A stretch of 64,000 bases of DNA from Pseudovirgaria hyperparasitica (taxonomy: Eukaryota > Ascomycota > Dothideomycetes > Acrospermales > Acrospermaceae): the NCBI RefSeq assembly GCF_010093815.1, contig NW_022985564.1, positions 124,001 to 188,000 of the forward strand, in the 5' to 3' direction. Position 1 is the stretch's first letter. The number at the start of each line of letters is the position of its first letter. Shown piece by piece: positions 15,920-35,600 of this stretch. A program made the translations under genes and the position numbers. A model generated the notes under the pieces. The model made no database searches and was not told the origin of the DNA. It saw only the letters and a program-made list of their open reading frames with translations.

Positions 15920-16370
15920 ATGGCTCCAAAAGTCGTCGACACCACTACAAGTGATACTGCCGTTACCTTTACTGAGAAGGAAATGTTTATGCTGGCCTCC
16001 GCATGGCAGTGCATGTCGGAGCAGCCGAAGGTACGCGGAATTGTCCGAGGCGAGTTGATATCTTGAATACTTCTGACCCGTGTTCAAGATCGATATGGAC
16101 AAGCTCGCGAAGATTTGCGGATATACCGCCGGATCCTGTTCGGTCACCTTTGGCAAGCTTAAGCGTAAGATCAAAGCTTTAGGAGATTCAAACAGCGATA
16201 TCACCGCAGCTCCTCCATCTACACCAAAGTCAGGCGGTCGAAAGCGCAAGCCTAAGGAGAACGAGGGCGAGGAGTCGCCAACGAAGAAAGTTCGCAACGT
16301 GAAGGCTCCTGCAAAGGTTGACCCTGAGGAGGAGAGCCCGGAGCCCGAAGTCAAGGACGAAAGTCACTAG
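15920..16370 (+). CDS. Tandem paralogue 1: small Myb-like/HTH-like protein with charged tail
   Basis: Two exons, 15920-16030 and 16089-16370, encode 130 residues. After MAPK and a short linker comes a helical segment, EKEMFMLASAWQCM, then the intron in phase 0 directly after Pro-Lys, then MDKLAKICGYTAGSC and a basic helix KLKRKIKAL. This three-helix pattern with a conserved Trp resembles the short Myb-like domain of many filamentous-fungal nuclear proteins (family assignment inferred). The tail mixes basic clusters (GGRKRKPK, PTKKVR) that look like nuclear localisation signals with acidic runs. It is the first of five similar genes in the same orientation. A role in DNA or chromatin binding is an inference from composition. 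Confidence 0.72.
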
Positions 16371-16896
16371 ATCAGCATGTTCGCATGATCACACCACGCT
16401 CCGAAGGTCTTGAGAATGAAGTGGGATATGGATTACTTTGCGGCTTATATGTGGCATGAATCGTGACTCGCATTGCGAGCTCGCTCATGTCAATCCGAAG
16501 AAGTATTGGTGTTATTCAAATGTGGACTTAAATAGAATGATAGGTGTTATTGAGGCGATGACCCCGCAAGCTCACTTCTTAGTCATGAACTGCCTTTTTG
16601 AACCATTGTCTTTTATTGCCTTGAGCCATTCCGTGGGAAACGGTGAACTTTGCCTGTATTAGGGACAATTCGCGGCATAATCACCTTGCCGGCTGAGGTC
16701 ATGTCACTGAGAGCTGTAATCACTTTTCCGGCAGAATGGTCTGATATCTCTGCCCTCGGCTCGGCTTTCTTATAAATTTGACGAACTCTCGCATTCCCCT
16801 TACATTCCACAATCCTTACAACAGCTCGCCCTTCCCTTCGTCTACCAACATCTCCCACTTCAAATTTCTCCGTAAGGTTAGAAGCAATCACTCAAC
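16371..16896 (+). promoter_or_regulatory. Upstream region of tandem paralogue 2
   Basis: 526 bp. The 8-mer TTCCGGCA sits at 16726-16733, about 164 bp before the start codon. A TATA-like ttataaat lies just downstream near 16769, about 125 bp before the start. A second CCGG-containing site, ttgccggc, lies at 16686-16693. No extra gene copy was detected in this spacer. Confidence 0.4.
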
Positions 16897-17435
16897 ATGC
16901 CGCCAAAGGCCTCCAAACCTGAAGCTACCAAATCATCCACCTTTTCGGAGAAGGAAATGACTATGCTGGCATTCTCGTGGCAATGCTTTGACGAGAAGCC
17001 TAAGGTATGCTGTCGCTGAGAATTCGTCCAATGACTATGGCTGATCATGGCTAGGTCAACAATGTGAAGCTCGCAAAACTCATGGGTTACACAGAGGGCA
17101 CTGCGAAGACAACATGGAATGCTCTGCAGCGTAAGCTAAAGGCTTTGGCTGAGACTGACGAAACTGAGGGCAATGATGAGGGCAATATGGGCATCACTAA
17201 TAACGACAACGATGGTGATGATGATGGTGCCCCAGTCCCTGTGACCCCAAAGACAACACCTCGCAAGCGTAAGACCAAAGGTGAGGACGTCAAGGCGAGC
17301 CCAACCAAAAAGTCTCGTGCGAAGCCGAAGACCCCAGTCAAAGCCCAAAGCTCGGATGACGACAAAGACGCAGAGGCTGTGGAGGCTGTGGAGGCTGTGG
17401 AGGCTGATGGCGAGGAGAACAATATCAATGACTGA
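16897..17435 (+). CDS. Tandem paralogue 2: small Myb-like/HTH-like protein with charged tail
   Basis: Exons 16897-17004 and 17055-17435 give 162 residues, the longest copy. The N-terminus MPPKASK is followed by SEKEMTMLAFSWQCF, the same phase-0 intron after Pro-Lys, then VKLAKLMGYTEGTAKTTW and LQRKLKAL. It is closest to copy 1 in this domain. The tail has a poly-Asp/Asn stretch, basic clusters (PRKRKTKG, SPTKKSRAKPK) and an acidic end with a 9-bp tandem repeat coding Glu-Ala-Val three times (about 17373-17404). The repeat suggests that tail length varies between strains. Confidence 0.72.
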
Positions 17436-17960
17436 TTCTGACACGCACATGCTTTCTTTGGGCTAGTCGATACTGTTTTTGGTGTACATGGTGGTCTGAA
17501 AAGTTACGGTGTTCCACGAAAGCTTCACTCTTATCCAGTTCGTTAGAGGTCAGAGGGATCGGTGAATTGTTTTAGATTCTAGGACTTCACCTACATACAG
17601 TTTCTAAACGCAGATATGCCGTCAAGGAATTCGATTGTGTCAATGTGTCAAATGAAGTAGCACAAATAACATATTTACGTCTTTACGACACTATGTATCA
17701 AGGATCCATGTATGCTCGTTCACTGGTGTGATAAACTCACTAGCTCATTTGAATGCACTACTTACACGAGTAAACCATAGATTAGCGCTGCCTCCACACT
17801 TCGCACTTTACGTGTCAACTAAAATTTCCCTGCTTACCTCTCACACAGCAAATATATCACCCTTTTCAACTCTTCCTAAGGTAGCGCTTGTCTCCTTACT
17901 TTCTTACCAATTGTACTAATTAGGCCTGTAATCTAGTCATATCTGATCATACATTAAGAC
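17436..17960 (+). promoter_or_regulatory. Spacer between tandem paralogues 2 and 3
   Basis: 525 bp holding the 3' end of copy 2 and the upstream region of copy 3. The TTCCGGCA 8-mer is absent. The final 200 bases are relatively AT-rich with a possible open frame (17728-17919) that has no family resemblance and is not called a gene. Confidence 0.35.
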
Positions 17961-18454
17961 ATGGCTCCAAAGGTTGATCCTGAAGCTATTCCCACGGTGC
18001 TTACTGAGAATCAGATGAAGATCCTTGTCTTCATGTGGGCTCAAGTTGACCCTGACCCCAACGCTTCTATCGTGAGTCTCAAGTCATATTCATTGACTTC
18101 TATTATGGAAAGCTAAGATTAGGATAGGTGGATAGTCATAAGATTGCAAATGACCATGGACTCGCTTATAACTCAGTTCGCAAGTGGGTAGCAACCATTC
18201 GCAAGACGATTCGTGCCAGCGTCGAAGGTGGCGCCGGTGACGATGCCTCTCGCAAGGCTAAAAGTGATCCTAAAGCCAAGGTCATAGGAGGTAGCAAGAA
18301 GCGCAAAGATGCTGAAATCAAACATGACGAAGCATCGGAGGAAGACAAAGAGGGTCCGCCTACCAAGAAAGCAAAGAGCAAAGTTCGCGGAAGGAAGAAA
18401 ACCCCTGCTACTGACTCGCCGGAACTTGGTGGAGAAGCAAGTGGAGAAGCTTAG
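17961..18454 (+). CDS. Tandem paralogue 3: diverged small HTH-like protein with charged tail
   Basis: Exons 17961-18071 and 18128-18454 give 145 residues. It starts MAPKVD, then TENQMKILVFMWAQV. The intron is again phase 0 at the end of the first helix region, but the Pro-Lys is replaced by NASI, and the second half reads SHKIANDHGLAYNSVRKW with a basic helix IRKTIRAS. It is the most diverged of the five. The tail carries GGSKKRKDAEIK and PTKKAKSKVRGRKK, strong nuclear-localisation-like clusters. The acceptor GATAG is fixed because the other nearby AGs lead into a stop or the wrong frame. Confidence 0.68.
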
Positions 18455-18949
18455 ATGGACTGAACATTGCCCAAGCTCTGATACGTATTGACCTTCTCAT
18501 AGCGGCGCTATTGAGTTCAAGTGTCTCCTAGGCGGAGCTTTTCGTGATCGACACGCACCGCTTCACATAAACAAGAAGACCCGTGGCATCAATACCTTGG
18601 ATACAAGCCTAGATCTGGTACTGACAGTCAAAATACAATCAATGGTCTTTTATAAGCTTCTTTATCGTAGTCTGTGCACGAATTTTTGTTGACTGCCGTT
18701 CACGCAACTGTTTCCATGGTGACACAGTTTCACTGTTGAGACAAACCCTGACCCGGTTTCCGGCAACAACAACAACGACAATTGATCGTTGCCCACACCT
18801 GTTTCGATCTTTCTTTCTTCCCTGCGCCTAAATATATCTAGGATTCCAAATCAGTTCCTGGTCCGTACATCACTGTCAAGTCTTTCATTCACTGAACTAT
18901 ACAGACCCGAGGCAAAACACGAACTTCAACCGTCAAGAAGGACAGCAAT
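18455..18949 (+). promoter_or_regulatory. Upstream region of tandem paralogue 4
   Basis: 495 bp. The 8-mer TTCCGGCA is at 18758-18765, about 185 bp before the start codon, followed by an AAC-rich run. A TATA-like aaatatat lies near 18831-18838. No other feature was seen. Confidence 0.4.
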
Positions 18950-19473
18950 ATGGCACCCAAGTCTGATTCGAAGACCGGCTCCGCTACGAGCTTGACTGAG
19001 AAGGAGATGAAGCTACTGGCCCTGATGTGGCTCTGTACTGATGTCCCAGATCCAAAAGTACGTATCAAAACCTCACCTTCTCCAAAGATCACAAGCAATT
19101 ACCTTTCACAATCCCTCTGAAGCACTTGTCTAACATATCACAGATCGATTACGACAAACTTGCTGACCTGAGCGGCTACACCAGATCTTCAGTGATGACC
19201 TACGTCCCAGTCATCAAGAAAAAGATCAAGAAACTTCAAGGCCCAGATGCAAGTACAGCTACTGCCCCTGACTCCAAGAAGGCCTCAGCAAGCGGCCGAA
19301 AGCGTAAGGCAGCTGATGTGGAGGACGAGGATGTCGACAATGACACACCCGCTCCCCCGAAAAAGACAAGGGTCATCAAAAGCGCCAAAAAAACTGCGCC
19401 AGTGGTCAGAGCCGAGCACAGTGAAGAGGAGGAAGCTATTGAGACGCATACAGAAGGAGAGATCGAAGCTTAA
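18950..19473 (+). CDS. Tandem paralogue 4: small Myb-like/HTH-like protein with charged tail
   Basis: Exons 18950-19057 and 19144-19473 give 145 residues. MAPKSDSK leads to LTEKEMKLLALMWLC; the phase-0 intron (86 nt) again follows Pro-Lys. The second part reads YDKLADLSGYTRSSVMTY and VIKKKIKKL. Basic tail clusters are SGRKRKAAD and PKKTR, ending in an acidic stretch. Shared intron position and the EKEM, KLA and GYT signatures tie it to copies 1 and 2. Confidence 0.72.
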
Positions 19474-20075
19474 ACTCATTGTGTGCAGGTATGCGTGGAG
19501 GCAGCACTATTCATGATTAGGTTCAGGGGTGAATGGAAATCTCTTTGCCTCCTTTCTGGCAAGCATACATCCATTTCATCGTATCTTCATAGTAGATGTT
19601 GTGAACATCTGGGGGCTGGAGATGATCAACGCATTGGGTTTGGGGACTCTACGGGGCAGTCATGGTATCTAGCTGCTCTAAGTATCGATGCATTCGCATA
19701 GTAGTAGATGAATGCAACACTGCCGGAACTGGCACAAAATCCTGCTACTGCTCGCCTTGAGTCACTTATGGCTGACAGCCTGCGAGTTCACCTGTTGTGA
19801 TTGGTGCGCCCTTTTCTCAAATAAATATTTAAGCCGCCTCTTTCTCCACATTTTTTTCTGATTGCAACAACATTGTGAAAGCTGCCTCACCTCACCCACA
19901 ACAACCTTTCAACTCTGATAACGTGAGTACATTATTCTAAACCTAACCTATTTCTGACTTTCTGTTTTTGATCGAAAGATCTTGTGTTCATCGCTCACAT
20001 TTCATGTCAATAGTTCACATCCCTGGTCCACCCAGCAAAAGAACCAAATCCTCCAAACACTCAAACCACGTCAAT
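19474..20075 (+). promoter_or_regulatory. Upstream region and 5' UTR intron of tandem paralogue 5
   Basis: 602 bp. The reverse complement of TTCCGGCA, TGCCGGAA, is at 19721-19728. An AT-rich TATA-like aataaatatttaa lies near 19821-19833. A probable 5' UTR intron runs from a GTGAGT donor at 19923 to a TAG acceptor at 20013, leaving a short leader before the start codon at 20076. Only this copy shows a clear leader intron. Confidence 0.4.
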
Positions 20076-20638
20076 ATGCCTCCAAAGGTCGACCTCTCTG
20101 GTATGCCCGAGCACTCTGCTCGCATGCTCGCCCTCGCTTGGCTTTGCATGGATACTGAACCCAAGGTGAATCTTCTCCCACTGATCTCCCGTAAGCACGC
20201 GCTTACAGAAATATACTGATACTTTCTTTACTACATCATTGCGCAGACCTAGAGCTAACTCTCCAACTCTAGATCGATACTGCTAAGCTCTCTCAGCTTT
20301 CCGGTTATACCCTCAAGTCTACCGCTGAGATGTTGCGTGTCGCAAAGAAAAACATCCGCGCTATGGATACCGCAGATGGCAAACCCGTGACCGAGCCCAC
20401 CAGCAAGGCTGCCAAGCCTGTAAATAAGGTGAAGGCGACTGCTGGTAATCACGATAAAGATGAAGACAACGATCTGAATGAGTCTGTACCCACTGTCAAG
20501 GCTATTAAGGGTAGGAAGCGCAAGGCTTATGTCGACGAAGACGAGGATGTTCCAGCCAAGAGAACCAGAGGTAAGGGAAAGAGGATTCCCATGAACGAGG
20601 AGAGTGCTGATAATGGAGATGATGAGGATGAAGTTTGA
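20076..20638 (+). CDS. Tandem paralogue 5: small Myb-like/HTH-like protein with charged tail
   Basis: Exons 20076-20165 and 20273-20638 give 151 residues. The N-terminal linker is shorter than in other copies: MPPKVDLS, then HSARMLALAWLCMDTEPK with the phase-0 intron directly after Pro-Lys. The second half reads TAKLSQLSGYTLKSTAEM and VAKKNIRAM. The tail has KGRKRKAY and AKRTRGKGKR basic clusters and ends in an acidic run. The EKEM start of helix 1 is lost, but WLC, PK and GYT are kept. Confidence 0.72.
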
Positions 20639-32634: not shown

Positions 32635-35600
32635 TTATTCGTATCTCGGGTCATCATCTCCAGTTGCCGCTGGTGTTGGTGCGCTCCATTGTCCCGGCGT
32701 CTCAGCAAATCCACCTGGAGTCTCTGCATAGCCACCAGGCGTGGGAGCAGCATACGCCCCAGGCGTTGGTGCTCCCGCCGGTGTGGCGTAGTTGCCATAA
32801 GAGCCAGCACCGTAGCGAGGCGTGGCATGGTCTCCAGGCGTCGGTGCAGCAAAGCCTGGTGTTGGCGCATCATATGCCGCGGGCGTTGGGGCGCTCTGGT
32901 AGGTGTTGGACGGCGGCGAGGCCGCATTGCGAGACGCAGATGAGCCCCATGTTGATGATGAAGCGTCAGTGGCATAAGGGTTAGGGGTCTTGGCAGAGGC
33001 AGACCACGTTGACTGTTGAATTTTAGCGGAAAACCACGGTTGGGATCGTTGAGCACTTACGTTTCCATAGGCAGTTCTACTGCCATCATTACCACCATAC
33101 GCAGTACGGCTACCATCATTTCCTCCGTATGCGGTGCGACTGCCATCGTTTCCGCCATACGCGGTCCGGCCTCCGTCATTTCCGCCTTGCCATGCGGGCG
33201 TCTTTGCAGAACTCCATGCTGGAGTCTTAGCACCACCGGACTTCCATGCAGGCGTTGCTCCGCCCATGCGCGAGCCTCCCCATGATGGCGTCGGTCCAGC
33301 AGCGTTGGGTCCAAAGCGTCCTGGTGTACCACCGCCGATCTTGGGACGAGTATTCCCAAAGCGGTTGAAGTCGACTGATTGACCGGTGATTGGATCTTTG
33401 ATTGCAAGAATGTCTTTTTTCATGGTGATCGTCTTGCTCTTCGTGTGTAGCTCCACTCTTGCTTCCAAGTCAGTCGTATCTTTGACAATGCCCAGTAATC
33501 CTTTGTGTGGCCCTTTTTTAACGTGCACTGTCTTCCCAATGAGCTTGTCTCTACCGAAGGTTTTGGGAGGTGCCATGGCACCACCAGCATTCGGTGCACC
33601 ATTGCGGGGTTGCAATGCTGGATTCATCTTGGTGAGATCAGGACCAGCGTTCTGAACGCGTCCCCCCTTTGCAGCCACAGTCGTGACATTAGTGCTACGC
33701 GTCACGAAAATACCGGCATTCTCGGTCTGTTGTCTGTTCTGACAGAATAGAAAGTTCCTGTGGATGTGCATGATGCGACCTTGCTTGGACTCCATACCTG
33801 ATTCTTTGACAGTATCATCGGGTCGAAGTTCGGACCCATCACGATCAGTAGCTACTGCTCTAGCACGCTTCTCGATCTTACTTGAGATCTGAGACGGAAG
33901 CATCGTTCGGACAGAGCCATTCTGGTCGAGAACCTTGAGAGACTCACGATCGACGCGAACGATGCACGCGACGGTCGAGACGTCCAGCTGAACAAGATCG
34001 TAAAGGTCGTAGACCCCGCTGCTAGGTAAGTTGGTTGCAGCACTTGCCAGTCGAAGGTCCCTCGATAATACCGGCATCTCTTGGTTGTTGGAATCTGCTA
34101 GGAATGTCACTTGATCGCCCTTAACCTTGACAACCATTCCAACTTCATCCTGATATTTGCCAGCCAAGACCTTGACATAATCACCCTCAGCAAACTTCTT
34201 TCTGAGAGCCTTGATGGGTGCCTCTATAGTCTGGTCTACCAACATCCCTTCGGTGACTTTCAAGGTGACAATTTCTCCACGGACAGAAATAGCCCGTCCA
34301 ACCACGCCTGCTTGTTCTCCTTGACTAAGCTCGACGAGATCGCCGGGGAGGAAAGCATCTGCCGTTACGCTGTTTTTCAGTGTATTTGCTAGAGCTGTCA
34401 AATCAAGTTCTTCGGTTCCATCAGCCGCGCCAGCGGCAAACTTGCTGACTTCATCAAGCTTCGGATTGACATTCTCTGTTTCCAGGTATGTTATCCGATA
34501 GTCTTTGATCAAGAAGCCGTTCTCATACGAATCGCCCTTGTACGTGTAGTCTCGCCTTCCCAACCCACCGTTCACAGAAAGGAATTTGGCATTTCTTCCT
34601 TTCCGTGCCTCGGTCTCGTTGAATAGTCGCTGTGGAGGTCGAGGCATGTTCGCAGGCTTTCCGAATTTGCGTTTCTTGTCAGTAGCCGGTGCGTTGACAT
34701 CTTCGTTAAGACCATAATCCAAGCGGGGAATGAGCTTGACGGTGACATCTACACCATTCGCTTCCACAGCTACGACCTGTGCAAGATCTCCTGCATACAT
34801 TGCAGGCCTCTTCATGCGTACGTAGGCTCCTGGGTTGAGTGTCTTCGACTTAGTGACTCGAAGGAGGTCCGGCATCTCATTGACGGGTATCAAGATCATC
34901 TTTGTGCGTGGGTAGCAGAACGCGATGCCCTCGGTGGCCGTGAAGACTGCATTTTGGGTGCGTGCTTCAATGTATATGTAGCCAGCCATTGTTCCTGCGC
35001 CTCGCTCGAAAGCAGAGAATATTTGGAGGGGCTCTCGCGTCAGTGCTTGCTCCTGTTGTCTTTTCGTGATCGAGAATATGACTTCCTTTTCTTTGCCCGG
35101 CTTGCACCGTACTCCCCAGATGCTCGGATCATCTACTGAAGGGAGCAGCAGTCTTTGTGGTACCACCGCTGAGTCTATTGCAGCGGCTCGACTGCGGCCA
35201 TATCGTTCGCGAAGTGCCTGAAGTTGCGATGTCAACGATTTGTACAAGCCAGTCTGGTGAAAATACTTACTGCGGCCTGTTTCTCAGCATCCATACTCGC
35301 CTCCATCTCACGTTGTCTATCCAATTCGCGATGGCGACGATCGTCTCTATTATCGTCGCGCACATCTAGGAGATCATCGGGGTGCACTTCTTCTGGCATG
35401 TCTCCCTCCTCGTCTTCCATTTCTTCCTCGTCTTCCTCGTCAACTTCGGCTTCGACATCTATGAACTGTAGTCTTGCGTCGCGCTTTCTTCGTTTTCGTG
35501 TATGCCCCTGGGAAGGTTAGCCATAGATTCGACATATATGTAGTGTGGTCAGCACAAACCCGAACTTCATCTTCTTCATCGTCCTCCTCTTCATCCTCAT

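Follow-up and report, generated by a model that had tools for sequence, protein, structure and literature searches.

A tandem array of five diverged genes for predicted Myb-like helix-turn-helix proteins in Pseudovirgaria hyperparasitica

Five paralogous genes in tandem

The window analysed here is a stretch of 64,000 nucleotides (nt) from Pseudovirgaria hyperparasitica (Dothideomycetes, Acrospermales), a fungus that lives on rust fungi, and corresponds to bases 124001-188000 of contig C16; the genome searched was the 35.0-Mb assembly of 59 contigs. At positions 15920-20638 on the + strand, five intact two-exon genes (g1-g5, spliced by hand) lie head to tail and encode small proteins whose N-terminal domain is predicted to be a Myb-like helix-turn-helix (HTH). 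The spliced products were identical to annotated P. hyperparasitica proteins (P0001: 100% identity over 100%), and pairwise homology was above chance, from an expectation value (E) of 6e-25 for g1-g2 to ~0.01 for g2-g3, the weakest of the 10 pairs. Splicing, annotation and pairwise comparison therefore bear out the original prediction, made from the letters of the window, of five paralogous genes of 130-162 codons within 4.7 kb, and we regard their paralogy as firm at the sequence level.

15920-16370, + strand: g1 (EJ05DRAFT_489117, P0012), exons 15920-16030 and 16089-16370, 130 codons (amino acids, aa)
16897-17435, + strand: g2 (EJ05DRAFT_479388, P0002), exons 16897-17004 and 17055-17435, 162 codons (aa)
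17961-18454, + strand: g3 (EJ05DRAFT_503933, P0003), exons 17961-18071 and 18128-18454, 145 codons (aa)
18950-19473, + strand: g4 (EJ05DRAFT_479390, P0001), exons 18950-19057 and 19144-19473, 145 codons (aa)
20076-20638, + strand: g5 (EJ05DRAFT_513886, P0004), exons 20076-20165 and 20273-20638, 151 codons (aa)
16031-16088, 17005-17054, 18072-18127, 19058-19143 and 20166-20272, + strand: homologous phase-0 introns of g1-g5
16125-16151, + strand: g1 codons 50-58 (TAGSCSVTF), the segment of the domain that varies most among the copies; it covers the first half of predicted helix 3
16239-16289, + strand: g1 codons 88-104 (RKRK...SPTKK), motif resembling a bipartite nuclear localisation signal (NLS)

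The introns of g1-g5 (58, 50, 56, 86 and 107 nt) are all GT...AG and phase 0 and share one site, as predicted, with the residues PK/I, PK/V, SI/V, PK/I and PK/I on either side; three additional residues immediately precede the intron in g3. The MxPK start and the conserved helix tryptophan (Trp) that had been described were also confirmed, since M[AP]PK and a Trp in helix 1 occur in 5/5 copies. The KLA...GYT half, also described as common to all, is exact in three of the five; g5 reads KLS...GYT and g3, the most diverged copy, KIA...GLA. The closest array copy to g2 is g1. A search with the family profile hidden Markov model (HMM) found no extra copy or remnant in the spacers, in the 385 bases upstream or in the 2.4 kb downstream (best 5.7 bits, E 0.2).

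Relatives, the shared intron and the age of the array

Outside P. hyperparasitica, a profile of the five array proteins matched seven proteins of Cladosporium and Monosporascus (E from 3.5e-12 to 5.8e-8). A second profile, for which the 7990 candidates sharing most words were scored, retrieved at least 76 proteins at E <=0.1, including proteins from Bipolaris, Curvularia, Paraphoma, Polychaeton, Thozetella and Cytospora; many of its rows were short metagenome fragments and were left unused. Of the 85 proteins P0001-P0085, 45 were fetched, P0001 was taken from alignments, and 30 entered the final alignments; rows left unread (most of them bearing no fungal name), short fragments cut at the N-terminus, Monosporascus near-copies and intron read-through rows were excluded. 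P0075, P0076 and P0078 are of doubtful membership, yet they are counted in the domain-match and tail-motif tallies given below. The fungal relatives that were read have the N-terminal domain in common and mostly a tail of the layout TP.K - RKR or RKRK - acidic - SP.KK - basic - VK.E - acidic end. All three features that define the family (homologous domain, homologous phase-0 intron and KRK...P.KK tail) were found in the array. Judged by these sequence comparisons, the family is not exotic, with same-layout relatives in other Dothideomycetes and in Sordariomycetes, the classes to which we take these genera to belong, and at two dispersed loci in the same genome.

The two dispersed P. hyperparasitica members are EJ05DRAFT_44949 (C10) and a C4 gene at about 860 kb, giving at least seven family members in the genome by an exon-by-exon search in which the best candidates were scored. 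The weak genome matches L005, L006, L008, L012-L014 and L021 were rejected as members, as the family HMM missed them at E <=1. The public protein of EJ05DRAFT_44949 (P0013, 253 aa) differs at its C-terminus from our 210-aa reading without a second intron, which means that the annotated gene has at least one further intron near the end. In the C4 member (L015, about 2300-1700 on the reverse strand), CATCCTCCC-type repeats abound in a long intron, and the region upstream of the gene is made up of CACACACACGCATC repeats and contains a stretch of N.

C10-type proteins (EJ05DRAFT_44949, P0018 of Paraphoma, P0019 of Bipolaris maydis, P0020 of Thozetella, P0055 of Cytospora and others) have the same domain as the array and a TP.K - RKR - acidic - SP.KK - VK.E tail, and the C10 gene has the array intron site. 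Their helix 3 begins with a near-invariant NPRSASNAW, however, whereas the array proteins lack one residue at this point and differ from one another. P0014 of Bipolaris oryzae and P0021 of Lojkania enalia are of the array type, with the same one-residue gap before helix 3. The g1 domain is 65% identical to P0014 (7/9 residues at codons 50-58) versus 57% to g2, and g1 alone among the five has such a close relative elsewhere.

The best readings of the C10 and C4 genes both put the intron at the array position. In the translated relatives P0029, P0030, P0035 and P0048, an insert lies exactly at the same site, starting with V and ending with Q before [IV]DY, which is what an unspliced GT...CAG intron would give. 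Being shared with the dispersed genes and apparently with these relatives, the intron predates the array, and its presence in all copies indicates that they arose through DNA and not by retrocopying. The array is thus an expansion of an old family. In the domain tree, which holds 29 of the 30 members (the cut P0028 was omitted) on 59 columns with long branches, the array was not recovered as one clade: 3 changes are needed to place the array copies on it, and 1 change suffices in 0% of 200 bootstrap trees. Within the tree, g3 and g4 group together (support 96/87, starred) and, less firmly, g4 also groups with g5 (g3+g4+g5, 84/87). The non-united tree would fit copies that are older than the split from Pleosporales, or simply an alignment with too few columns, and a single origin of the array copies may still hold despite it.

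Synonymous change among the copies is saturated (proportion of synonymous differences, pS, 0.57-0.86). Recent tandem duplication was ruled out, with synonymous distances (dS) of at least 1.4 or beyond estimate in 10/10 domain comparisons. There was likewise no sign of duplicates damaged by repeat-induced point mutation (TA/AT 0.71 in the array versus 0.72 in the window; (CA+TG)/(AC+GT) 1.32 versus 1.23). Intact frames at saturated synonymous change support the view of old or fast-evolving duplicates kept intact. The copies had been described as strongly diverged outside the domain; the domain itself has diverged too (pairwise identity 27-60% over aligned columns outside codons 50-58). Our literature searches found no paper on the family or the array, most subscription journals being outside their coverage. 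More Myb factors have been reported in Ascochyta rabiei than in the other necrotrophs compared (PMC5470089), and the word 'tandem' is absent from that paper.

Predicted fold and tail motifs

In AlphaFold (AF2) models, g1 and g3 consist of a three-helix HTH followed by a disordered tail; the models and their HTH structural neighbours agree on this fold, which is still predicted in g3 despite its divergence. The HTH fold is therefore well supported by prediction, and the short Myb-like/HTH fold first suggested for the N-terminus gains support from these two models. A profile HMM search gave a weak match of g1 to PF22980 (Myb_DNA-bind_8; 17.7 bits, E 0.0023) and none for g2-g5 at E <=1. Across the 30 family members, PF22980 matched 6/30 at E <=0.1 (best E 8.9e-6), and its 27-bit cut-off was reached by 0/30 (best 25.4 bits). 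NCBIfam returned three unrelated-looking families, each in a single family member, and none for g1. On these profile matches, the array family is an uncurated, poorly catalogued, Myb-like one. The g1 model also superposed on nine spliceosome rows (1.8-2.0 Å over 45-46 residues, identity <=27%), whose chains we take to be the Myb repeat of CDC5L/Cef1; in this structure search, bacterial HTH rows did as well as the Myb ones.

A sequence search of the PDB gave chance-level rows (E 4.6-9.6), which we rejected. One of them, on the tail, was Bimax2, presumably an importin-alpha ligand, and this row prompted a test for an NLS. The motif [KR]KRK...P.[KR][KR] was found in 5/5 array tails, against 0.001 expected by shuffling, and in 7/25 relatives (0.026 expected), although the tail rows are related and motif counts are not independent trials; in several other relatives the first cluster is RKR, one basic residue short. 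As a sequence pattern, the motif is laid out like a bipartite importin-alpha nuclear signal, in keeping with the earlier description of the proteins as nuclear-looking. A psi-K-x-E motif was present in 22/25 relatives, where 4.5 would be expected by chance and 1000 shuffles never gave more than 13, and, in the array, in the g1 tail only (1/5). Together with the likeness to P0014 in the domain and at codons 50-58, this motif marks g1 as the putative conserved copy and g2-g5 as derived.

The tails had also been likened to those of histone H1 or HMG proteins, a comparison that our results do not uphold. Acidic residues (D+E) outnumber basic ones (K+R) in 4/5 array tails, a balance that tells against an H1-like role, and the linker-histone, HMG-box and AT-hook families had no match in the five proteins at E <=1; weak AT_hook matches occurred in 2/30 family members.

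Divergence of helix 3 and interpretation of the array

In Myb and HTH folds, helix 3 is the recognition helix, and in Myb-type folds its first half reads DNA. When the five array copies were compared with five diverse C10-type relatives, identities were similar in helix 1 (45 versus 44%) and in the loop with helix 2 (49 versus 52%) and fell apart in helix 3 (first half 19 versus 83%; second half 32 versus 47%). A sliding window placed the largest contrast at codons 51-59 (0.68; matched by 26 of 20,000 column shuffles), although the idea arose from inspection of the alignment and neither this test nor that of the segment was blind. Within the array, codons 50-58 are 19% identical, compared with 40% for the rest of the domain, and lower in 10/10 pairs; all five copies have a basic patch at the end of helix 3. 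The proportion of nonsynonymous differences (pN) was below pS in 20/20 comparisons, and pooled pN/pS was 0.58 for helix 1, 0.40 for the loop and helix 2, 0.86 for the first half of helix 3 and 0.76 for its second half. With pS saturated, all that can be read from these values is a constrained frame in which helix 3 is the least constrained or the most driven part, so that the proposed dN/dS check answered the question of constraint and could not tell selection from relaxed constraint.

We favour, with a probability of about 0.55, a tandem expansion of nuclear HTH (Myb-like) proteins in which g1 was conserved and the other four diverged, perhaps in the DNA sites that they recognise. Both the nuclear location and the binding to DNA are inferred here from sequence features. 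The bipartite signal of the tail would carry the protein into the nucleus, where helix 3 would sit in the DNA major groove and the basic patches at its end and in the tail would add backbone contacts; the acidic runs, and psi-K-x-E where present (a possible SUMO acceptor), may recruit partners. The conserved copy g1 would perform the ancestral job. The copies g2-g5 probably have different targets or partners, because they are most diverged in the DNA-reading half of helix 3 and are without psi-K-x-E.

Nonetheless, several results weigh against this interpretation. The best Foldseek E for g1 was 0.5, and VIA Z remained <8 throughout, which for a three-helix bundle indicates a common arrangement only. 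The 50 matches listed for g3 were for the most part bacterial HTHs (sigma, response-regulator and Lrp types), with no spliceosome row among them, and the five array proteins reach no Pfam cut-off. The psi-K-x-E count of the array is at shuffle level (0.7 expected; 499 of 1000 shuffles reach it), and selection is inseparable from relaxed constraint because synonymous change is saturated. With regard to helix 3, the 12 canonical (C10-type) rows, in which the segment is 89% identical versus 58% outside (66 pairs), and the five used in the sliding window were chosen by hand, in part for the helix 3 that they have in common, and prior to any calculation of the percentages. The control for this choice is the comparison of array, canonical and other non-array rows, and the nine other non-array members also vary in the segment (27% versus 35% elsewhere, lower in 29/36 pairs); over all 210 non-array pairs, it is 51% versus 43% outside. 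From these alignments, a subfamily-specific helix 3 is common in the family, with the array, five genes of a single genome, at the extreme. A contrast unique to the array is weakened by the nine-member control and is only partly special to it, which makes divergence of specificity a weaker hypothesis than before the control; the same control slightly lowers the standing of the favoured reading and raises that of drift.

A more far-reaching version, in which the copies are paralogous regulators whose helix-3 reading half diversified under selection, with g1 and the four derived proteins recognising different sites and the derived ones having escaped sumoylation, seems unlikely. It is likewise unlikely that g2-g5 are redundant copies drifting under relaxed constraint, with no new specificity, after g1 kept the function. 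Such drift would agree with g1 being the only copy with both a close relative (65%) and psi-K-x-E, with a helix-3 pN/pS that nears and does not exceed 1 (0.86) and with the variable helix 3 of other subfamilies. Yet unneeded copies would be expected to be broken by now, whereas all five retain their reading frames, splice sites and NLS-like motif at saturated synonymous divergence, the predicted fold is kept even in g3, and pN is below pS in every comparison.

We consider it distinctly unlikely that the domain is a SANT-type protein-interaction module of a nuclear complex whose copies bind different partners and not DNA. Its fold is common to the spliceosomal Myb repeat, which need not read DNA, and acidic tails suit protein contacts; the basic patch ending helix 3 in all five copies, however, suits DNA, and PF22980, the sole recurring domain family among the 30 members, is labelled DNA-binding (a label, not a test). 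Very unlikely, in our view, are non-specific chromatin-architecture proteins of the H1/HMG kind, whose basic clusters would bind DNA anywhere and leave helix 3 free to vary. Short, tail-rich proteins with lysine clusters and a helix 3 that varies in the array and in other subfamilies are in line with this idea, but it conflicts with the acidic excess in 4/5 tails, with the lack of H1, HMG-box or AT-hook matches in the five proteins, and with helix 3 being the best conserved segment of one subfamily (89%, 12 rows).

If the favoured expansion involves functional helix-3 differences, five short, easily expressed proteins would allow the change of specificity after tandem duplication to be measured; if selected diversification is true, they would form a compact natural series for the rewriting of DNA-binding specificity within one genome. 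The NLS-like tail and psi-K-x-E of the relatives predict importin-alpha binding and sumoylation.

Several features around the genes were also observed. Upstream of g5, a GTGAGT...AATAG stretch (19923-20013) resembles an intron of the 5' untranslated region, and its excision would move a TATA-like word at -255 closer to the start; TATA-like words lie at -126, -111 and -121 in g2, g3 and g4. No shared promoter motif emerged from the 300 nt upstream of each gene, where every 8-mer occurs in at most two of the five stretches. By eye, the upstream neighbours of the array resemble pescadillo and PIG-U, and a large frame on the - strand (32635-35283) is SPT5-like with imperfect C-terminal repeats.

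Compared with known systems, the array family is similar in length and HTH pattern to the PF22980 domain. Two PF22980-type domains in the same genome (L005/L006, C16:755921-756255), which the array-family HMM does not find at E <=1, score 27.8 and 27.0 bits, both above the cut-off, and lie ~125 bases apart on the contig of the array, ~610 kb from it, with a long low-complexity C-terminal frame. Small Myb-like proteins of the array type recur in filamentous ascomycetes, yet the closest Pfam model fails to pick them up at its cut-off. Classical Myb/SANT repeats carry regularly spaced Trp residues, a rule that the array proteins do not follow, with one Trp, in helix 1, conserved in all five. A structural likeness to a known Myb protein is the three-helix fold that the g1 model has in common with the Myb repeat of CDC5L/Cef1 in spliceosome structures.

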